Source: Campylobacteraceae bacterium
GTDB lineage: Bacteria > Campylobacterota > Campylobacteria > Campylobacterales > Sulfurovaceae
Reading direction: 5' to 3'
DNA: 40,225 bases
NCBI GenBank assembly: GCA_027034975.1
Contig: JALVWQ010000031.1
Span: 1-40,225 of the forward strand
The position numbers and the translations under genes are program-made. Of the stretch, positions 7,096-40,225 are shown piece after piece; the first letter of the stretch is position 1; every line of letters begins with the position of its first letter. The notes beneath the pieces were generated by a model. That model ran no database searches. It was not told where the DNA came from and was given only the letters and a program-made list of their open reading frames with translations.

Positions 7096-7917
7096 ATGAA
7101 AAAAATATTCTTTCTCTCTTCTCTTGCAACACTCCTCTTTGCAAGACCGGTTTTGACACTTCTTCCCTATTATACATATACGCACTATAGCGATCAATTC
7201 AAAAAAGCTGCACATACCATTGGTTACTATGGGGCACTTTACAATTCCCCACATCTCTTAGAGCTCTCGGCAAGTTATAATACAATTGTCTATAGAGGAA
7301 ACTATCCACGCTATGAACAGAGTGAGATAACAACACTCTATAGCTATTTTTTCAATAGTAAACTCAAGATAAAAGGGGGTTTCCACCTTGTAGCAAGTGA
7401 CTTTAGAGAAGCAAATGAAGGGTTAGTCACTGCTATAGCAGGAATCGATTACCATTCTCCAAAGAAAAATCTTGGTTTAGAGCTTTTCCATAGCCGCTAT
7501 AAACACTATAAGCCAAAACCGCTCACAATCTGGCAAATACACCCATATTTAGGATATAAATTTGGTAGTTTTGGAATACAAGGCGACTACAACTATATCC
7601 ATGCAAATAATAATACACTCTATAAAGGGGTACTTGCTCACTATCACTCCTTTGGCCTTAAGCTTAGTAAAAAGTGGGGAAGATGGACAACATCAATCGG
7701 CGGATGGATTGGGAAACGAGCCTTTGCCCTTGAAGATGGGGGATTTACTCTCTACAATCTTAGCCAAATTTACACAAGCGGTATCGATGCTAAAGTCAAA
7801 TACCACACACGAAAGGGAGCAGATATTGCCCTTAAATATAGTCGTAAAAATTATAAAAATTACGGTAAAAAAGGGCATTCAGATGCTCTTACAAGCTCAT
7901 TTGCCTATAGTTGGTAA
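7096..7917 (+). CDS. predicted outer-membrane beta-barrel protein (paralog 1)
   Basis: 273 residues with a signal peptide (MKKIFFLSSLATLLFA), then alternating polar/hydrophobic segments rich in Tyr, Gly and Ser, ending in the aromatic strand SSFAYSW typical of BAM-recognised outer-membrane proteins. No named family is recognised. It aligns along its length with the gene at 8130-8972: LLPYYTYTHYS against VMPYSAYINYS, and GGWIGKRAFALEDGGFTLYNLSQIY against GAWTGKKAFAVANGGFTVYNLGETY (quoted in part). The two are therefore tandem duplicates. The role could be a porin-like channel or adhesin; this is not decidable here. The Shine-Dalgarno GGAG is 10-12 bases before ATG. Confidence 0.75.
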   Translation: MKKIFFLSSLATLLFARPVLTLLPYYTYTHYSDQFKKAAHTIGYYGALYNSPHLLELSASYNTIVYRGNYPRYEQSEITTLYSYFFNSKLKIKGGFHLVASDFREANEGLVTAIAGIDYHSPKKNLGLELFHSRYKHYKPKPLTIWQIHPYLGYKFGSFGIQGDYNYIHANNNTLYKGVLAHYHSFGLKLSKKWGRWTTSIGGWIGKRAFALEDGGFTLYNLSQIYTSGIDAKVKYHTRKGADIALKYSRKNYKNYGKKGHSDALTSSFAYSW

Positions 7918-8129: not shown

Positions 8130-8972
8130 ATGAAAAAAACACTCCTCTTTCTATCACTCTCTGCTACACTTGCAATGGCAAAAAGCAGTGTTACAGTAAT
8201 GCCCTACAGTGCTTATATCAACTACAGTGGCTCTACAAAAGAGAGTGCTGCTATAGTCGGTCTTTATGCTTCTGTCTATAATTTTCCAAATAAATTTGAA
8301 CTTGGATTAGAGAATACCAATATCCAATATAATAATGACTCTCCAGACCTTGATCAAAATGATTTTACGGCAATATATACACGATTTATAGCGAAAAATT
8401 ATTCATTCAAAATCGGTATTCACTCTATTCAAAGCGATGATACATTAACAGATAATGGACTTATTGGAATAGTGGGAATGAGTTATTATAAATATTTAAA
8501 ATATAATTTCGGTATTGATCTCTACTATAGTAAATATAAAAATTACTTTCCAAAAGAGTTAAAAGTAACACAAATAAGTCCATATGCCGGTTTTAACTTT
8601 GGAAATTATGCAAGTAAATGGGGATCGTTTTATCTAAAAGCACAATACAACTATATAAAACCTCAAAGTGCCGCTTCATTTGCCCTTAAAAAAAGTTATA
8701 ACTCTTTTGGGCTAACCCTGACCCAATACAAAGGCAAATTCACCACAACAATTGGTGCCTGGACTGGTAAAAAAGCATTTGCTGTAGCAAATGGAGGTTT
8801 TACAGTCTATAATCTAGGTGAAACCTATAAAGGCGGTGCGAAAGCAGCAGTAAGCTACTCGTTACGCAAAAATACTACATTCTCATTAAAATACAACTAT
8901 GCAAAATTTACAGAGGCACAAAAAAATGCCCATACCGACACCTTTTCCCTCTCACTCTCGCATACTTGGTAA
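8130..8972 (+). CDS. predicted outer-membrane beta-barrel protein (paralog 2)
   Basis: 280 residues, signal peptide MKKTLLFLSLSATLAMA, then a beta-rich Tyr/Asn/Ser/Lys sequence ending LSLSHTW, an aromatic C-terminus suited to the BAM complex. It is a clear paralog of the preceding gene but considerably diverged, most strongly in the regions expected to form loops (for example residues 60-80). AAAGGATTTTC precedes the ATG. Unlike paralog 1 it contains several insertions around strand turns, so surface exposure and selection for variation are plausible. Function unknown. Confidence 0.75.
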   Translation: MKKTLLFLSLSATLAMAKSSVTVMPYSAYINYSGSTKESAAIVGLYASVYNFPNKFELGLENTNIQYNNDSPDLDQNDFTAIYTRFIAKNYSFKIGIHSIQSDDTLTDNGLIGIVGMSYYKYLKYNFGIDLYYSKYKNYFPKELKVTQISPYAGFNFGNYASKWGSFYLKAQYNYIKPQSAASFALKKSYNSFGLTLTQYKGKFTTTIGAWTGKKAFAVANGGFTVYNLGETYKGGAKAAVSYSLRKNTTFSLKYNYAKFTEAQKNAHTDTFSLSLSHTW

Positions 8973-9020: not shown

Positions 9021-9626
9021 TTAATTTTGAGCATATTCTAAGAGAGCAGCTTTTGCAGCAACATTATTCGGATCTAAAATAAGAATATTCTGATAGATCT
9101 CTTTTGCTTTTTTATAATTTTTTATTTTGGTAATATCGGCTAATGCTTCAAGATAGAGAATACTTGTTGGATAGAGATGTAACATTTTATTTGCAATTGC
9201 TGCGGCAGTCGCATACTCTTTTTTCCTCTTGAGGGCTTTTAAGAGATAGTAGTTGCCATAATAGTTATAGTAGTCAATTTTTACAATAACGCTTCCTGTT
9301 GCAATTGCATTTTGAATATCCCCTATCATTAAATATGAACGCAGCAGCCCTAAATATGCCTCCATCGATTTTGGTGCTGCTAAGAGAGCCTCTTTATAGT
9401 GTTTTATCGCATTCTTATACCGTTTATTTAAAAAAAAGAGCCATCCAAGACGGAGATTTATAGTATAGCCATGTTTATACTTTTCATAGAGTGGAATAAG
9501 CACTTTAATAGCCTCTGCATAATTGTAGCTCTTCTCATAATTGTACGATTTTGCATATATATCTTTAATATCTAATGCCTGCAAGAGAAACCCTGCAACA
9601 CTAAGCAGTAATATTATCTTCTTCAT
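9021..9626 (-). CDS. TPR-repeat exported protein
   Basis: 201 residues: signal peptide MKKIILLLSVAGFLLQA, then about four tetratricopeptide repeats, seen as AEAIKVLIPLYEKYKHGYTINLRL, the unit around YKNAIKHYKEALLAAPKSMEAYLGL, and a last unit KKAKEIYQNILILDPNNVAAKAALLEYA (each quoted only to place it). TPR domains hold protein partners. It is the last gene of the five-gene PqqD/ATP-grasp operon and overlaps the transporter-peptidase gene by 26 bases, so a periplasmic scaffold for that system is a reasonable guess. No catalytic motif is seen. Confidence 0.78.
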   Translation of the reverse strand: MKKIILLLSVAGFLLQALDIKDIYAKSYNYEKSYNYAEAIKVLIPLYEKYKHGYTINLRLGWLFFLNKRYKNAIKHYKEALLAAPKSMEAYLGLLRSYLMIGDIQNAIATGSVIVKIDYYNYYGNYYLLKALKRKKEYATAAAIANKMLHLYPTSILYLEALADITKIKNYKKAKEIYQNILILDPNNVAAKAALLEYAQN

Positions 9627-11610
9627 AAACCCTTCTTAATGTAAAATTTTTTCCTTCAATACTCTCAAACCCTTTTTGATGGAAGTTAAATGTCACTTTG
9701 CCATACGCAGAGCTAATCTGGAGCCTCTCTTTTTTATAACTTGCTTTTTTATCATAAAGTCTATAGTTAAATGTTGTTACAAACTCCATAAAAGAGCTCT
9801 TTATTCTCCCATAACGCAGCTCTATCGGCAAAGTATCTTCATAACTTACTGCATCGCCAATAAGTGGAATCTTTGGAGCTATTTTAAAGAGTTCTTTGAG
9901 ATAACTCTCATCTCCTTGGTACGCATAGAAGTAAAAGAGCTTATAATCAAGGTAGAAATAGAGACTGTTGTTTCCATCATAAAGATAGAACTCACCAGTA
10001 TCATTCATCTTTACTTGGATGCTATACTCATTCCCATTCTGGTCTCTATAGCGAAAATGGTCATCAAGAATAAATGTTACTAGCAACTGCATACTCTTAT
10101 CAAGCACAGCCGCTTTTATTGTCTCGCTTACCTTTGGCAGCTGATAGAAATGAAGCTTACTGTTATGGATATAATCGACAAATCTAAATGGAATTGTCTC
10201 ACTTCCTAAAATAGCATATTTTTGTACCTGTAGATGGATATGAGGCTGCGGTGAATAGCCGCTGTTGCCACATTTTGCTATAATTTGACCCATTTGCAGA
10301 TAATCCCCCACCTTTGGCAGTATCGAATTTTGCATAAGATGGGAGATCTCGACATAGTATCCGAAATCAGAGGCAATAATAATATAATTGCCCCAATTAT
10401 TCAATCTGTCTACATCCCCTATAAAATTATCTGGAAGATCGGCTCTTAAAGCTACGACATATCCATTAATTGGAGATACAACATCTTTTCCAAAGGCATA
10501 ATAATCCTCTAAAAAATTCCCCTCATTTTGATAACTTTTTCCATCTTTAGTAATAACGAAATCGTAAGCATACCGCCATGCCCCTTTATGGGTCCACTCT
10601 CCATTAAAGCCTTGATAGACACTCCACTCCCCTAAAAAAGGGAGATGAATCTTAATATCGCTCCCTCCAAAACGATAAAGAGAAGATAAAAATCTATTTA
10701 AAGACTCTTCCGGAGTTGCTTTTGGATTATAGTTATAGTATCTATACCCTATTGTTACAGTCAGCAGTAAAAAGAGGATCGTAATAATATTAAATGGCAT
10801 TGTATAGACAGGAAGATTGTAAGTATTTAGAAATACCTCCATAGAATCGATAACAACTGCCGATAAAGCTACTGCGATCATAGAAATAAGGTAGTTTCTG
10901 ATATTTGCTACTAAAAAGAATCCGCCTAGCGACATTGCAATAAGGATAAAGTTAAAGTTATAAGGGGAGTTGAGCGCCTCTTCAAAAGGGACAAAGATGG
11001 TATGAACCCCTACACCTACAAGAAAGCCCAAAAGTGCCATCAAAAAGAGTATTCTTGAATACAAAAGCAGCAAAAGTGCAATCACAAAACCTGCTATATT
11101 GTAGGGCAAAAAGAAGATCGTCCCAAGCGATTTAAAAAAAGATCCAAACGGAAGAGCAATCTCAAAAAGGGGCTTGCGGTAGAGTGTATTGCTTAAGAGA
11201 TTGGTATACTTGAGGCTTGCTAAATAAAACATCATGCCAATAAAGGCAAATGGGAGCGAAAGAATGGGCAGCGAATATTTTAAAAAGACACGATTTAAAC
11301 CAAATGTAAAAAGAAATGTCAGTGTCGCTAAGATAGCAGTTAAAAGAATTGTAGAGGGAGTAACTTCAAAATAGTACCCCACTCCCATCCCCACAAGCAG
11401 AGAGTTATAGAGATAGAAACCGTGTTTGAGATACTCATCGCGAACCTTTACCAATTCGGCAAAAGCAATTGTTGCTATAATAGCTGTCAATCCCAAAATC
11501 CCCACACTTGGTAGAATAAAAGAGAGGAGCAGTAGCACTACTCCAGCTTTACAGTCTCTTAAAAAGAGAATAGAGTAGTATGCTTTAAGAAGAAAGTTTA
11601 ACTTTTGCAC
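9601..11610 (-). CDS. urea-transporter-family membrane domain fused to an M23 peptidase domain
   Basis: 669 residues. Residues 1-290 hold about ten membrane segments with urea-transporter (PF03253) features such as LYNSLLVGMGVGYYF (67-81). After a short linker an M23/LytM domain (about 325-465) follows: H341 and D350 in THKGAWRYAYDF, H424 in EISHL, and H457/H459 in PHIHLQV are the expected zinc and catalytic positions. The first His-Asp spacing is longer than in lysostaphin-type HxxxD. The last 200 residues are beta-rich and unassigned. It starts with GTG at 11610, AAGGG upstream. A periplasmic peptidase tethered to a channel-like domain is unusual; peptidoglycan cleavage or uptake of a small solute are both possible. 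Confidence 0.8.
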   Translation of the reverse strand: MQKLNFLLKAYYSILFLRDCKAGVVLLLLSFILPSVGILGLTAIIATIAFAELVKVRDEYLKHGFYLYNSLLVGMGVGYYFEVTPSTILLTAILATLTFLFTFGLNRVFLKYSLPILSLPFAFIGMMFYLASLKYTNLLSNTLYRKPLFEIALPFGSFFKSLGTIFFLPYNIAGFVIALLLLLYSRILFLMALLGFLVGVGVHTIFVPFEEALNSPYNFNFILIAMSLGGFFLVANIRNYLISMIAVALSAVVIDSMEVFLNTYNLPVYTMPFNIITILFLLLTVTIGYRYYNYNPKATPEESLNRFLSSLYRFGGSDIKIHLPFLGEWSVYQGFNGEWTHKGAWRYAYDFVITKDGKSYQNEGNFLEDYYAFGKDVVSPINGYVVALRADLPDNFIGDVDRLNNWGNYIIIASDFGYYVEISHLMQNSILPKVGDYLQMGQIIAKCGNSGYSPQPHIHLQVQKYAILGSETIPFRFVDYIHNSKLHFYQLPKVSETIKAAVLDKSMQLLVTFILDDHFRYRDQNGNEYSIQVKMNDTGEFYLYDGNNSLYFYLDYKLFYFYAYQGDESYLKELFKIAPKIPLIGDAVSYEDTLPIELRYGRIKSSFMEFVTTFNYRLYDKKASYKKERLQISSAYGKVTFNFHQKGFESIEGKNFTLRRVYEEDNITA

Positions 11611-11630
11611 TCAAGCCCTTTTGCTAAGTT

Positions 11631-12965
11631 CTACTGGAGATCTTTTAACAGATACTCTTTCTCCACAATATACTCTAAATCATCGGCATCTTTTATAAGG
11701 TGAACGTGAGACTCTTTATCTATCAAAACAACTCTTGGTTTATAGCGGATAAACTGCATCGCCTGGGTAACACTATATGCTCCAACTGGCCAAATTGTTA
11801 AAACACTCTCTCTATTTAGCGGCGGTAGCATTATATTTTCGGCAATAATATCAATATTCATACAAAGTGGGCCGTTAATTTGCGACGGCTCATTGATCCC
11901 TTCGTAGCGTCTATCTAGCATAATATCAAAATTATACCAGAAGCTCGTATAGAGCAGATTCACACCGGCATCGATAATATAACTCTTCTTTCCATCTGGC
12001 ATTCTTTTGGATGCAAAGACACTGCTTAAGAGGTACCCTGCTTCATCTATGAGTGCTCTTCCTGTCTCTAGATAGAGTTTTGGCAATTTTCCTTTATTGT
12101 ACTCAAAAATTGCATTTGTAATTGCCTCAGCATACTCATCGGCACTTGGCACGATAACCTCTGGTGCCTGATAGATCCCTTTTAATCGGCTCTTACTTGC
12201 AAATCCGCCGCCTATATCGATATACTCTATGCTGTATCCAAACTCCTCTTCAACACGGTTTTTTAACTCTACAAGCTTTTTCGTCTCTTGTCCATATGCA
12301 CTTGCACTAAGCATAAATGTTCCAATATGAGCATGGAGGCCATTTAATACGAGCTTTTTCCCCTCATGGATCCGCTTAATCGCCTCATACGCTTCCTCAT
12401 TATCGATATTGAATCCAAATCTACTCCATTGTGGATAGATACCTGTATCCATATTACAGCGAATTGCTACTTCGATTGTCTGCCCAATCTCATCGGCAAT
12501 ATCCTCTAAATCATTTATCTCATAGAGGTGGTCAATATGTATCTTTGCCCCCTCCAATGCTGCTTTTTTGAGAGCCTCTTTTGGTTTATAGGGACCATTA
12601 AAGATAATATCTTTCCCCTCAATGCCTAAGCGTCTTGCCTTCTCATACTCAAATTCACTTACAACTTCTGCTTTCGAGCCTAAATTGTGGAAGACTTGAC
12701 AAATAGCATCTAAATAGTTTGTTTTGTAGCTCCACCAAAACTGTACATCTGGGTACCTGCTATGGAATGCTTCATAAATCTCGTTATACTTCTCTTCTAT
12801 CGCTCTTTGCGAAAAAACAAATAGCGGACTGCCATACTCTTTTGTTAAATCATTCACATTTACACCATCAATTGTGCTTTTTATCTTTTGGCTCTTTAAC
12901 GGACTGCCATATTTGCTTGCTAATGCAAAATCTACTCTATTGATTGTCGGTTTTTCATACTTCAT
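11631..12965 (-). CDS. PLP-dependent Orn/DAP/Arg-type (fold III) decarboxylase
   Basis: 444 residues of the group IV decarboxylase family (LysA, NspC, ornithine decarboxylase). The PLP lysine is K81 in WWSYKTN. HAHIGT near 215, IDIGGGF near 253 (phosphate loop) and GPLCMNIDIIAE near 365 (the Cys contributed across the dimer interface) are all present, so the enzyme should be active. It would decarboxylate an amino or diamino acid, possibly one attached to or made by the ATP-grasp ligase encoded just upstream. It is not obviously LysA: the N-terminus is longer and the substrate-specificity segment is not one I can match. AGGAG precedes ATG, nine bases after the ATP-grasp stop. Confidence 0.85.
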   Translation of the reverse strand: MKYEKPTINRVDFALASKYGSPLKSQKIKSTIDGVNVNDLTKEYGSPLFVFSQRAIEEKYNEIYEAFHSRYPDVQFWWSYKTNYLDAICQVFHNLGSKAEVVSEFEYEKARRLGIEGKDIIFNGPYKPKEALKKAALEGAKIHIDHLYEINDLEDIADEIGQTIEVAIRCNMDTGIYPQWSRFGFNIDNEEAYEAIKRIHEGKKLVLNGLHAHIGTFMLSASAYGQETKKLVELKNRVEEEFGYSIEYIDIGGGFASKSRLKGIYQAPEVIVPSADEYAEAITNAIFEYNKGKLPKLYLETGRALIDEAGYLLSSVFASKRMPDGKKSYIIDAGVNLLYTSFWYNFDIMLDRRYEGINEPSQINGPLCMNIDIIAENIMLPPLNRESVLTIWPVGAYSVTQAMQFIRYKPRVVLIDKESHVHLIKDADDLEYIVEKEYLLKDLQ

Positions 12966-12974
12966 AAACTGCTC

Positions 12975-13985
12975 CTATCGCTCTTTTTTTGTTAATAATT
13001 TTGTAAATTCACTAAAATCGACGACTGTCTCATCGACATACCGCATATACATCTTCTCTCTTGCATAGTTAAAATTTGGTTCTACCTCTTTGCCTTGGAC
13101 TAAATCGAGCATCATCTGCGGCAAATTTACCCCAAGCTGAGTGCTAAAGTAGACCCATGCAGGGAAACGTGGATTAATCTCAATAAGATAGATATCACTC
13201 CCATTTGCCATCGCTTCAAACTCAAATGCCCCTCTCCAACCACTAAGCTCCACAAATTTTCGAGAGATCTCTAAAAGTCTCGGATTATCGATACTTACGG
13301 CACTCCAGACCTTCCCAAGCTCAGTGGTTGTCAATTTCTTTGCTGCCACACCGCCAAGAAGCTCCTTACCGTTGCCAATTCCAACAAAATTAATCTCTTC
13401 TCCATGCACTACCTCTTGAGCAAGCAGAGGGAAACCCCACTCATTAGAGATTTTATAGTAATACTCTATGGCTTCATCCAAATTATAGGCTTTATAGGCT
13501 TTGTAGTAATTCCCTTTTACCATAATTGGAAAACCAAACTCTTTTGTCGCTGCTATTAAATCGTCTAATGAGCTTACCTCTTTTGTATTTGGGTGCTTTA
13601 CACCAAGCTCTTTGCTTAATTGCGGCAATTTGCTCTTATCGCGCATCTCAAAACACTCTAATGAAGGCAGATAGCTTTTTACTCCTAAGGCTTCGATTTC
13701 CTCTTGATACTTTATATATAGAGGCAACTCCGCATCTAAATTAGGAATTATAAAATCTATCTTTGATTCCTCATGAATCCGAGCAATTCGTTTTGCAAAC
13801 TCCTCATATCCAAGTGTCGGATAGGGCATTAAATAGACCTTTTCAAAAAGCCCCTGATAGACGCCTGGCTCATTTGGATCATAACTTAACCCAATAAGCT
13901 GATGCTCTCCTTGCAGGCTCTTTGCAACTGGGATCCCTGGAGCTGGATTATCCGTATTATTCAATCCACTTATAGCAACTCTCAT
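12975..13985 (-). CDS. ATP-grasp ligase-like protein
   Basis: 336 residues. The N-terminal Rossmann-like part (MRVAISGLNN) is followed by an ATP-grasp core: FPIMVKGNYYKAYKA (about 152-166), QEVVHGEEINFVGIG, and the metal-binding ending FEFEAMANG...LIEINPRFPAW (E and N ligands near 270-275). These enzymes form amide bonds through acyl-phosphates. The start overlaps the PqqD-like stop by ATGA, and the decarboxylase follows after nine bases. Known ATP-grasp partners of PqqD-type proteins modify or ligate peptides, but no precursor peptide is visible next to it, so the substrate could equally be a free amino acid. Confidence 0.83.
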   Translation of the reverse strand: MRVAISGLNNTDNPAPGIPVAKSLQGEHQLIGLSYDPNEPGVYQGLFEKVYLMPYPTLGYEEFAKRIARIHEESKIDFIIPNLDAELPLYIKYQEEIEALGVKSYLPSLECFEMRDKSKLPQLSKELGVKHPNTKEVSSLDDLIAATKEFGFPIMVKGNYYKAYKAYNLDEAIEYYYKISNEWGFPLLAQEVVHGEEINFVGIGNGKELLGGVAAKKLTTTELGKVWSAVSIDNPRLLEISRKFVELSGWRGAFEFEAMANGSDIYLIEINPRFPAWVYFSTQLGVNLPQMMLDLVQGKEVEPNFNYAREKMYMRYVDETVVDFSEFTKLLTKKER

Positions 13986-14218
13986 GATAAAAGCCCATAA
14001 ATTTTAATTTTTTGAAAGAAATCCTCTACATCAATATGGACAACTCTCCAATCGGTTCCACTCTCTTTTGCAACGAGGTGTACTATCTCCTCTTTGCTCT
14101 TTCCTTCTTTAATTAACTCTATAATTCTTTTTGCCATATCGTTTAATTGATACGATATTCCAAGTGATGGGATATATCCCATATTGTTCTCATCAATAAT
14201 TATTTCATCAATTAACAT
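13982..14218 (-). CDS. PqqD-like peptide-chaperone (RRE-type) protein
   Basis: 78 residues with a typical PqqD ordering: short beta start IIIDENNMGYIPSL, then SYQLNDMAKRIIELIKEGKSKEEIVHLVA and DVEDFFQKIKIYGLL. The N..A..I..L..G.S.EEI......D...F...L..YGLL pattern is that of the PqqD winged-helix family, whose members bind leader peptides and present them to modifying enzymes. It is first in the operon, with AGGAG seven bases before ATG, and is coupled by overlap to the ATP-grasp gene. It implies that the operon's substrate may be a peptide or a carrier-bound group. Confidence 0.75.
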   Translation of the reverse strand: MLIDEIIIDENNMGYIPSLGISYQLNDMAKRIIELIKEGKSKEEIVHLVAKESGTDWRVVHIDVEDFFQKIKIYGLLS

Positions 14219-14291
14219 TACTTTCTCCTATTATTCATATTAGTTAAAATGATAACAGAAAAGGGATATAAATATATTTAAAAAAATACTA

Positions 14292-14326
14292 TTTTTTCGA
14301 AAAAAGTGTATTTTATATCGAAAAAA
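14292..14326 (-). promoter_or_regulatory. candidate operator/promoter of the PqqD operon
   Basis: TTTTTTCGAAAAAA (14292-14305) is a perfect 14-base palindrome, and its half TCGAAAAAA recurs at 14318-14326, exactly 21 bases on, two helical turns. It lies 75-110 bases before the PqqD-like ATG. AT-rich palindromes arise by chance, so regulator binding is only proposed. The rest of 14219-14466 shows no gene. Confidence 0.3.
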
Positions 14327-14350
14327 TGGATGTAAATTATTATTCAATCA

Positions 14351-14386
14351 TAAAAAGAGAGTAGGTGTAATAAAAACTACTCCTAC
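14351..14386 (-). terminator. probable terminator after the FmdE-like gene
   Basis: On the minus strand GAGTAG, a 12-base loop and CTACTC are followed by TCTTTTTAT. An alternative stem uses GTAGG/CCTAC. It lies between the FmdE-like stop and the PqqD operon, separating the two transcripts. Confidence 0.4.
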
Positions 14387-14466
14387 TTTTCTAAAAAAGC
14401 TACTTCCACAAAGAGTAATAAAATTTTAGATAAATGAAGAGAGTATAAAAACAAAGACTCTTTACA

Positions 14467-31863: not shown

Positions 31864-31939
31864 GGTCCCATAGCTCAGTTGGTAGAGCACCACCTTGACA
31901 TGGTGGTGGTCACAGGTTCAAGTCCTGTTGGGGCCACCA
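31864..31939 (+). tRNA. tRNA-Val (GAC anticodon)
   Basis: A 76-base cloverleaf: acceptor GGTCCCA with TGGGGCC (one G-U), D arm with AGCTCAGTTGGTAGAGC, anticodon stem CCACC/GGTGG around TTGACAT giving anticodon GAC, T arm ACAGG-TTCAAGT-CCTGT, and an encoded CCA at 31937-31939. Confidence 0.95.
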
Positions 31940-32054
31940 TTTTCTTCATAAAAATCCCTTTTATTACAAAATGCTACTTAAGTTGCAATCTCCTTTCTCT
32001 ATTTTTTGTATTATTACCTCATAGAAAATAGTGTTGATTTTAAGGAGGTTAAAG

Positions 32055-32498
32055 ATGCTAATTCAAAGATTTGATCCATTTAAAGAGTTTGAAGAGTTAC
32101 GAAAAAGCTTTGAACAGATGAGTCGAGTAATGAATACTCTCGAAGAGGGACGAGTTGAGAAAGATATACAGTTTATTCCAACTGTCAATACACGAGAAGG
32201 AAGCGAAGCATACTATATCGAAGTTGACCTACCAGGTGTAAAAAAAGAGGATATCAATATTGATATACACGACAATATCTTAACAGTAAGTGGTGAAAGA
32301 AAATTAGAAGAGGAGCGAAAAGATGATGAGTTCTATCGCATAGAGAGCCTCTATGGTAAATTTGAGCGAAGTTTCACACTGCCAGAAGATGTCGATAGCG
32401 ACAAAATCGAGGCAAAAGATGAAAACGGTGTTCTACTCATAACTATACCAAAAGCACAACAGGTCGATAAAGCACCGAAAAAGATAGAGATTAAGTAA
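32055..32498 (+). CDS. Hsp20 small heat-shock protein (first of pair)
   Basis: 147 residues. An alpha-crystallin domain (about 42-140) with YYIEVDLPGVKKEDINIDI, LTVSGERK, FERSFTLPEDVDSDKIEA and NGVLLITIPK, followed by an ITIPK-type I-x-I tail motif. N-terminal FDPFKEFEELRKSFEQM is typical. These chaperones hold unfolding proteins as oligomers. ATG 32055 is chosen for AAGGAGG seven bases upstream; the GTG at 32031 is upstream of that site and is rejected. No CIRCE element was found upstream. Confidence 0.95.
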   Translation: MLIQRFDPFKEFEELRKSFEQMSRVMNTLEEGRVEKDIQFIPTVNTREGSEAYYIEVDLPGVKKEDINIDIHDNILTVSGERKLEEERKDDEFYRIESLYGKFERSFTLPEDVDSDKIEAKDENGVLLITIPKAQQVDKAPKKIEIK

Positions 32499-32511
32499 GA
32501 AGGAGGTTGTC

Positions 32512-32943
32512 ATGGGTAAAACAAAAAAAGAGTTACAAAATGTTGAGAAAAAGGTTGAAAAAGGGATTGTAGAGGGTGTTAAACAGTTAAAAGAGACACT
32601 CTCAAATGTTGCAAGCCATCTCCCATTTGCAAATATTGCTCATAATAAAAATGAAGAGACATACACTGTAGAGATTGACCTACCGGGCGTTAAGAAAGAG
32701 GATATAAATGTAAGTATCGAGGGAGACTATCTCAATGTTACCGCAGAGCGAAAAATGAAAGAGGAGGTCAAAAAAGAGGATTACTATTTAATGGAGAGTG
32801 CATACGGTAAATATGCACGAAGTTTCTACCTCTCAGATGATATTGACCGCGACTCTATTGATGCTCGTTTCGAAAATGGTCGCTTAACAATAAAATTCGA
32901 AAAAGTGCCAGAGAAGAAGCGACGAGACATCGCAGTAAAATAA
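32512..32943 (+). CDS. Hsp20 small heat-shock protein (second of pair)
   Basis: 143 residues. A Lys/Glu-rich N-terminus with coiled-coil character (KTKKELQNVEKKVEKGIVEG) replaces the usual hydrophobic arm; the alpha-crystallin domain carries YTVEIDLPGVKKEDINVSI, LNVTAERK and FYLSDDIDRDSIDARFENG. It lacks a C-terminal I-x-I pair. It begins 13 bases after the first Hsp20 with AAGGAGG, so the two are co-expressed and may form mixed oligomers, the second being the divergent partner. Confidence 0.95.
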   Translation: MGKTKKELQNVEKKVEKGIVEGVKQLKETLSNVASHLPFANIAHNKNEETYTVEIDLPGVKKEDINVSIEGDYLNVTAERKMKEEVKKEDYYLMESAYGKYARSFYLSDDIDRDSIDARFENGRLTIKFEKVPEKKRRDIAVK

Positions 32944-38663: not shown

Positions 38664-40225
38664 CTACTTCTTAGGGGCAAGCTTCTTTTCTACCTTAATA
38701 TCTCTCTCACCAGCTCTTACAACAATGTTGATAGAACGACTTGTAGTAAACTCTAAACCTTTTGGTTGTTCGAATACTATTTTGTATCTTCCTGGTAGGA
38801 GATTATCTGCTTTAAAGCGTCCTTTGCTATCAGTTTTTACCTCTTGAACTAAATGTCCAGTTGCGTCATAGATTTTAACACTTAAGCCTTTAAGTGCTGT
38901 ACTATTGACACTATATGCTTGCATACCTCCCATTGGGATAATTGAGTAGACTCCAATGAGTGAACCACACTTGAAGTATCCACCATCTAAATCTTTATAG
39001 TCATCTCCACTACTGAGTGTTACTGGATCTGTAGTGTAGTCATCTGGATTAATATCACTATCTTTTGCCTCATCGTTTCCTTTATCTTTGTATGTTACAT
39101 AATATAGGTCATCATCTTTGAACATTTTAACTTTATAGCTTCCAGGTTTGAGGTTACAGAATTGGTATTTACCATCTGCTCCTGTTGTTTGTGGAGCTAC
39201 AGCATTACCATTAATATCTGTTACACTATTTCCATTGCTATCCATAAGTGTAACCACTACTCCCTCTATTCCTGTCTCATTGCTATTATTATCTTGGATA
39301 CCATTTCCATCATAATCTAACCATACTATATCACCTATACAAGCTGGTCTGTATAATCCACCATCCCAACTCATATCACTACCACCTGTAGGGAGTATAA
39401 TAGTTGTTGTTTTTCCTGTAGTTGGATCGATATCACTATCTTTATTGTTATCGCCTCCTTGATCTTTAGGAGAGATTACATAGCCACTTGGTGGAGTAAC
39501 TTTTACTATATAGTCACCACCATCAAGCTTACAGAACTTATACTCTCCATTATCACCTGTAATTTGTGGAGCAACTGGATTACCATAGCCATCTTTAGCT
39601 GGGTTACCGTTTGCTTGAAGTAGCTCTACTTTTGCTCCTTTAACACCACTCTCACCTGCATCTTGGATACCATTAGCGTTTTTATCTTCCCAGATAAAGT
39701 TACCTAAGCAACCTTCTGGCTTATAAACACCTGCATCCCACTTCATATCGTTTGCACCCTCTGGGAGGTTAATAACTGTTGTCTTTCCTGTAGTTGGTGC
39801 AATATCGCTATCTTTAGCATCATCACTTCCTTGATCTTTTGGAGAGATGATATATCCAGTTGGTGGTGTTACTTTTACTATATATTTCCCATCACTTAAT
39901 TTACAGAACTTATACTTTCCATCAGCTCCTGTTGTTTGCGGTGCTACTGTATTTCCAAAGAAATCTTTTGCTGGATTACCGTTGCTATCTAGGAGCTCTA
40001 CTTTTGCTCCAGCAATGCCATTTTCACTTCCATCTTGGATACCATTACTATTTGCATCTAACCATACAAAGTCACCTAAGCAAGATAGTGCTTTACCGTA
40101 GTAGTGTGATGGGTCTTTATCTGTAACTGTTTTTCCTTGTGGATCTTTTCCTGTTGCTGTTGCCTCATTTGCGTATTGTCCAGCTTTTGCTTTCCCTGTT
40201 TTAGTACAAGTCATACTCTCACCAG
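38664..40225 (-). CDS. SdrD-B repeat surface or secreted protein, partial (N-terminus outside window)
   Basis: About 520 residues are visible. After a DUF11-like end (YANEATATGKDPQGKTVTD) come three 123-124-residue SdrD-B/Cna-B type repeats starting at residues 45, 169 and 292 of the stretch from Met at 40214: each has GDFVWLD.N.NGIQD, V.L....GN, DGKYKFC.L and a D-rich end. Repeats 1 and 2 are nearly identical in plan, repeat 3 diverged. Each repeat has one Cys at its start and one in the YxFC strand (45/104, 169/228, 292/353). A final Cna-B-like domain (416-516) ends LAPKK with no sorting signal. Calcium-stabilised stalk-like domains are expected. Confidence 0.85.
   Translation of the reverse strand, partial: GESMTCTKTGKAKAGQYANEATATGKDPQGKTVTDKDPSHYYGKALSCLGDFVWLDANSNGIQDGSENGIAGAKVELLDSNGNPAKDFFGNTVAPQTTGADGKYKFCKLSDGKYIVKVTPPTGYIISPKDQGSDDAKDSDIAPTTGKTTVINLPEGANDMKWDAGVYKPEGCLGNFIWEDKNANGIQDAGESGVKGAKVELLQANGNPAKDGYGNPVAPQITGDNGEYKFCKLDGGDYIVKVTPPSGYVISPKDQGGDNNKDSDIDPTTGKTTTIILPTGGSDMSWDGGLYRPACIGDIVWLDYDGNGIQDNNSNETGIEGVVVTLMDSNGNSVTDINGNAVAPQTTGADGKYQFCNLKPGSYKVKMFKDDDLYYVTYKDKGNDEAKDSDINPDDYTTDPVTLSSGDDYKDLDGGYFKCGSLIGVYSIIPMGGMQAYSVNSTALKGLSVKIYDATGHLVQEVKTDSKGRFKADNLLPGRYKIVFEQPKGLEFTTSRSINIVVRAGERDIKVEKKLAPKK

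Follow-up and report, generated by a model that had tools for sequence, protein, structure and literature searches.

A conserved gene set joining a PqqD-fold protein, an ATP-grasp ligase and a FigC-like decarboxylase to a urea-transporter-fold M23 protein: a candidate route to an exported, decarboxylated amide conjugate

What might a bacterium make, and where might it send it, with an operon that joins a small PqqD-fold protein to an ATP-grasp ligase, a pyridoxal phosphate (PLP) decarboxylase, a urea-transporter domain fused to an M23 peptidase (UT-M23) and a tetratricopeptide repeat (TPR) protein? The question is raised by a 40,225-base stretch of DNA from a Campylobacteraceae bacterium (GTDB family Sulfurovaceae; assembly GCA_027034975.1, contig JALVWQ010000031.1), referred to here as the window, which is all of contig C31 in a genome of 1.77 Mb. 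A sequence-only reading had proposed a five-gene operon of this composition, belonging to no named pathway; all five open reading frames (ORFs) were found on the minus strand, their families were confirmed by Pfam, and no published name or description of the set was found in the open-access literature. The proposed junctions of 20 bases or fewer held for the first three (-4, +9 and +20 bases in gene order), whereas the last is an overlap of 26 bases, and a sixth family, an outer-membrane barrel encoded next door, had been missed. The gene set, its order and co-occurrence, the folds, the intact active sites and the topology bias described below were computed here. The reading that we favor, at a rough probability of 0.45, is that the set makes and exports a decarboxylated amide conjugate, with the PqqD-fold protein as an adaptor and a cytoplasmic M23 domain at the mouth of a channel.

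At least 522 relatives were returned when 84,980 species genomes were scanned, and linkage was counted in the best 80 loci, each denominator holding only those loci whose contig reaches far enough for the gene in question. The ATP-grasp gene is flanked on one side by the PqqD-like gene (75/75 loci) and on the other by the decarboxylase gene (73/73); UT-M23 lies near it in 59 of 62 loci, and long loci contain the outer-membrane barrel in 36 of 38 cases and the TPR gene in 35 of 38. At three loci (L091, L125 and L129) UT-M23 is not adjacent to the set and is found elsewhere in the genome (E < 1e-276). The best 80 loci bear labels from about ten phyla, including Campylobacterota, Aquificota, Thiotrichales, Francisella, Magnetococcales, Bdellovibrio, Verrucomicrobia, Desulfofervidaceae, WOR-3, Thermotogota and Firestonebacteria; these are labels of strains or of metagenome-assembled genomes, and some of the latter are questionable, such as a bin named Klebsiella. 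Because gene order is conserved across phyla, the linkage is well beyond chance, and the genome-neighborhood check of the PqqD-like, ATP-grasp and decarboxylase genes bears out the earlier view of a single functional unit.

In a sample of 150 genomes from the window's own family, a decarboxylase ortholog at 69% identity or more was present in 14, the window's own included. All 13 other carriers also have the PqqD, ATP-grasp and UT-M23 genes in unchanged order, and the remaining decarboxylase matches in same-family genomes are at the level of LysA (at most 32% identity). The ATP-grasp gene occurs in 19 of 397 genomes of the window's phylum, spread over 10 of 68 genera, in 39 of the 121 genomes in a sample taken around an Aquificota genome and in 11 of 274 genomes of one gammaproteobacterial class. 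The core of PqqD, ATP-grasp, decarboxylase and UT-M23 is kept in 10 further gammaproteobacterial genomes (11 loci), the single exception being a PqqD gene not seen where the contig ends. Pairwise identities of the six families are correlated (r 0.77-0.94). In the tree of decarboxylases, the copy from Francisella is nested, with strong support, within Campylobacterota, a placement suggestive of lateral transfer of the gene set. Carriage on plasmids was considered and rejected, the only lead being one distant Streptomyces match.

The closest solved relative of the decarboxylase is FigC (7kh2; E 1.5e-53), and within the family the window's enzyme stands nearest to FigC/FslC and diaminopimelate (DAP) decarboxylase. 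Its active site is intact, as had been proposed: K81, R169, H213, G252-254, R303 and C368 are all kept, and those that characterize an alanine-racemase-fold PLP decarboxylase, namely the PLP lysine (K81), the phosphate glycines (G252-254), the stacking histidine (H213) and the cross-dimer cysteine (C368), each reach 97% conservation or more across 72 sequences. More than 100 positions of the enzyme reach this level in 72 sequences, which points to one fixed substrate. Substrate recognition in the family depends on a specificity helix together with the Cys loop, and FigC has been grouped with SbnH, AcsE, MccE and BtrK, enzymes whose amino-acid substrates are conjugated or carrier-bound (FigC structure paper, PMC7857480). 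Here the Cys loop carries M369 where the DAP, ornithine and arginine enzymes carry an acid, and the specificity helix (T340, W343, Y344) has neither the Asp of ornithine and arginine decarboxylases nor the Arg of DAP decarboxylase; neither DAP nor a free basic amino acid is therefore a likely substrate. The general layout of the pocket is that of FigC. The residues that contact citrate in FigC (H357, R387 and N389) correspond to I371, Q401 and M403, so that the acyl part of the substrate is probably not citrate, and the protein scores 220.8 bits as an N-citrylornithine decarboxylase (FslC/FigC), against a cut-off of 500. A match to a lysine or polyamine branch, which the sequence-only reading had named as an outcome that would count against it, did not appear: the enzyme scores 220.3 bits with the LysA model TIGR01048 (cut-off 297.9), it forms a clade apart from LysA (support 100/99) in a tree where the placement of FigC depends on a long branch, its pocket does not match, and the genome's own true LysA is encoded on contig C23.

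The ATP-grasp protein matches an NCBIfam carbamoyl-phosphate-synthase-like family below its cut-off. It is a carbamoyl-phosphate-synthase-like ligase whose nucleotide and metal motifs are conserved, KGNYYKA and EINPRFPAW being invariant in 13 diverse sequences. An amide ligase working with a decarboxylase of a conjugated amino acid, as originally suggested, is still the best reading of the pair. A decarboxylase of amino acids is also paired with an ATP-grasp ligase in the methanofuran (methylofuran) pathway (MfnA, MfnD); unlike the window's set, that pathway decarboxylates first, draws on other enzyme families and retains its cofactor in the cell. In the synthesis of rhizoferrin by Francisella FigA/FigC (FslA/FslC), a synthetase forms an N-acyl amino acid that an alanine-racemase-fold enzyme then decarboxylates (PMC7857480). 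This logic of acylation followed by decarboxylation would be shared by the window's set, which has a FigC-type enzyme; the two differ in that the ligase here is an ATP-grasp enzyme and not an NRPS-independent siderophore (NIS) synthetase, that the decarboxylase lacks the citrate-binding residues, and that UT-M23, the TPR protein and the barrel are present and a major facilitator superfamily (MFS) exporter is not.

The PqqD-like protein is a plain PqqD/RRE fold; across 76 sequences, no residues other than G20 and D63 reach 97% conservation. In a few gammaproteobacteria (L150, L153, L154 and L155) it is fused to an N-terminal extension of ~180 residues; a TetR/RamR identity for this extension, suggested by eye, was rejected, the RamR matches being weak (E 0.2-1) and without significant support. 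Biosynthesis of pyrroloquinoline quinone (PQQ) was likewise rejected, as PqqD scores 12.8 bits against the TIGR03859 cut-off of 46 and neither a radical-SAM (S-adenosylmethionine) gene nor PqqA is conserved nearby. The small protein could in principle be a carrier, as in the BtrI/BtrJ/BtrK series of butirosin: the ATP-grasp ligase would load an amino acid on PqqD, the decarboxylase would act on the tethered group and M23 would release it. BtrJ is an ATP-grasp enzyme, BtrK is a relative of the decarboxylase, and in both systems a small protein of ~80 residues, an ATP-grasp ligase and a fold-III decarboxylase would act one after the other; the linkage of the small protein at 75 of 75 loci also accords with such a scheme. 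However, the small protein has the PqqD fold and is not an acyl carrier, the butirosin system, in which BtrI and BtrK take part (PMC7857480), has no membrane parts, and no conserved attachment residue (Ser, Lys or C-terminal) was found among the 76 sequences, the C-terminus itself being unconserved. We regard a carrier pathway as very unlikely.

The same fold matches the recognition elements of ribosomally synthesized and post-translationally modified peptides (RiPPs), in whose clusters ATP-grasp enzymes are known. PqqD could thus bind the leader of a distantly encoded precursor, which the ligase and decarboxylase would modify and a cytoplasmic M23 domain, serving as leader peptidase, would cleave. 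A product of this kind seems improbable, since the 700 bp flanking each side of the set hold no conserved small ORF (up to 77 loci), in agreement with the earlier remark that the adjacent DNA holds no precursor peptide, and the fold alone is no proof of a RiPP, PF05402 holding many domains without relation to PQQ (PMC12710340). A RiPP with a local precursor was rejected on the first of these grounds, leaving a distant precursor as the possible form.

The model of UT-M23 (predicted local distance difference test, pLDDT, 92.1) has a complete urea-transporter fold, like dvUT and UT-B in both fold and sequence across the entire transporter domain, together with an M23 domain that resembles ShyA, Csd and lysostaphin and an additional beta domain. 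The M23 zinc ligands and catalytic His (H341, D350, H424, H457 and H459) do not vary among 43 sequences, and with this full residue set and a Pfam score of 39.1 (cut-off 28.7) the domain belongs to the M23 zinc peptidases. Unlike dvUT and UT-B, the transporter domain is fused to the M23 and beta domains and its urea-site Gln/Glu residues are replaced or variable. Since the urea-facing Gln/Glu, at positions assigned from the known transporter sites and an alignment, are mostly replaced, urea is unlikely to be the cargo; the protein has the fold of a urea transporter and scores 100.5 bits with the equivalog TIGR03441 (cut-off 274.6).

For the topology, helices were taken from the predicted model and oriented by the known arrangement of UT-B, which we take to have its termini inside and the glycosylated loop between its halves outside. 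Lys and Arg residues number 8.3 per protein on the cytoplasmic side and 1.8 outside, and 43 of 43 homologs agree. Because both this bias and the homology to UT-B and dvUT place that side inside, the C-terminus of the transporter domain, and hence the M23 domain, should be cytoplasmic. The earlier placement of the peptidase in the periplasm is thereby contradicted, and a peptidoglycan-linked product loses its main support. The M23 fold with its full zinc and catalytic set, and the seats of the TPR protein and barrel in the envelope, would suit a modification of the envelope in which peptidoglycan or the outer membrane receives the decarboxylated amino-acid conjugate and M23 acts on periplasmic peptidoglycan; against this stand the cytoplasmic side of M23 at every homolog examined and the absence of any conserved peptidoglycan-binding or attachment enzyme nearby, and we consider it quite unlikely.

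In most relatives a gene for a protein of 280-300 residues lies between UT-M23 and the TPR gene, and its profile picks out two genes of the window, copies A and B, which are 39% identical to each other and, on the plus strand, stop 48 bases short of the operon end. Relatives often have one copy, within the operon; the window has two in tandem outside it, convergent with it, an arrangement that recurs in L053. The AlphaFold (AF2) model of copy A has 14 strands (pLDDT 94.4), and its best Foldseek match is the monomeric porin OmpG. Some phyla have a longer barrel gene with a TPR-like N-terminal part, the repeats being recognizable in L118. With the barrel the gene set spans the whole envelope, and the TPR protein is probably periplasmic. 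The pairing of TPR with an outer-membrane barrel, down to the one-gene fusion in some related loci, recalls the PgaA/BcsC exporters; unlike these, the set has no glycosyltransferase, and its barrel is 14-stranded and OmpG-like, with no established sequence relation. Proteins of the UT and OmpG-like kinds form passive pores, and two-component genes adjoin the set in several Campylobacterota, as might be expected if porin and UT channel admitted a small amide for use or sensing and M23 served as a hydrolase in the cytoplasm. An ATP-dependent ligase and a decarboxylase nevertheless indicate synthesis, and the urea-site residues are not kept; uptake or sensing is thus highly improbable.

In the self-contained conjugate pathway that we favor, the ATP-grasp ligase would form an amide between an acid and an amino acid in the cytoplasm, and the FigC-type decarboxylase would then take the alpha-carboxyl off the conjugate, not off a free basic amino acid, with the PqqD-fold protein as the adaptor or chaperone that presents the substrate to both. 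The product would pass the inner membrane through the urea-transporter-fold channel, at whose mouth the cytoplasmic M23 zinc domain may cleave it or hand it over, and would exit through the 14-strand outer-membrane pore, helped by the periplasmic TPR protein. Several points weigh against this proposal. Peptide binding is the best-known role of PqqD-fold proteins, yet no nearby peptide was found; an M23 peptidase in the cytoplasm would be out of the ordinary; the urea-binding residues of the transporter are lost or variable (position 13: E/A/S; position 164: T/A); and species relatedness accounts for part of the correlation of identities. The order of reactions, the product, the direction of transport and the roles of M23 and PqqD are inferred. 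A more integrated form, a synthesis-coupled export machine in which the M23-UT fusion releases the PqqD-presented, ATP-grasp-made, decarboxylated conjugate into the channel, with a dedicated TPR bridge and pore, is doubtful. The ligase-plus-decarboxylase logic is already known; the complete machine stands a fair chance of being new in kind.

Table 1. Features of the operon and its neighbors in the window.
Feature	Coordinates	Strand	Remarks
PqqD-fold small protein, 78 aa	13982..14218	-	Pfam PqqD E 2.2e-8
ATP-grasp ligase, 336 aa	12975..13985	-	Pfam ATPgrasp_Ter E 6e-8; 4-base overlap with PqqD-like gene
Alanine-racemase-fold PLP decarboxylase, 444 aa	11631..12965	-	Pfam Orn_Arg_deC_N E 1e-30; 9-base gap from ATP-grasp
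UT-M23	9601..11610	-	GTG start; 20-base gap; single chain with Pfam UT E 5e-59 and M23 E 9e-10
TPR protein, 201 aa	9021..9626	-	Pfam TPR; signal-like N-terminal stretch; 26-base overlap with UT-M23
Outer-membrane 14-strand beta-barrel, copy A	8130..8972	+	Convergent with operon; profile E 8.6e-79
Outer-membrane beta-barrel, copy B	7096..7917	+	Tandem paralog of copy A; profile E 2.4e-52
Operon upstream intergenic region	14219..14466	-	Promoter expected; no conserved small ORF or Rfam match

Across the set of loci the flanks contained no further conserved gene family, an Rfam search of the operon region found no riboswitch or small RNA, and no PADLOC model for anti-phage defense matched at 0.001. 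Two promoter-like matches, at 14470-14442 and 14300-14271, are close to what chance would give. Response-regulator or histidine-kinase genes adjoin the set downstream in L064, L066, L067, L077, L084, L089 and L095 and upstream in L079, L088, L101 and L108; such two-component neighbors were seen in several Campylobacterota, as if controlling the set. Single loci have metal-related genes beside it: Fur/Zur-like and ZIP genes (L092, 4553-5837), a CDF-like gene (L126, 6669-7682), an AcrB-type RND gene (L130, 5-1915) and an apparent heavy-metal ATPase (L069, 14001-16379). The commonest 25 Pfam families of 104 neighboring proteins include no metal family beyond four AcrB-type matches, and a metallophore product, suggested by these single-genome neighbors and not enriched in the Pfam tally, was rejected as an explanation and kept as a lead only. 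Elsewhere in the window, a tRNA gene overlaps an HPnc0260 match (Helicobacter antisense RNA family) on the opposite strand (31864-32078; 62.5 bits, cut-off 59), two tandem Hsp20-like small heat-shock genes, strongly divergent in sequence by eye, lie at 32031-32943, and an ORF at 38664-40214, whose repeated units resemble those of surface proteins (SdrD/B-like, by eye), runs nearly to the contig end.

The gene set is thus widespread, highly conserved and apparently undescribed. If the proposed pathway is correct, vent and sulfur bacteria would produce a secreted or envelope metabolite that has so far gone unrecognized, a transporter of the urea-transporter fold would be built for a cargo other than urea, and an M23 peptidase would be at work in the cytoplasm.

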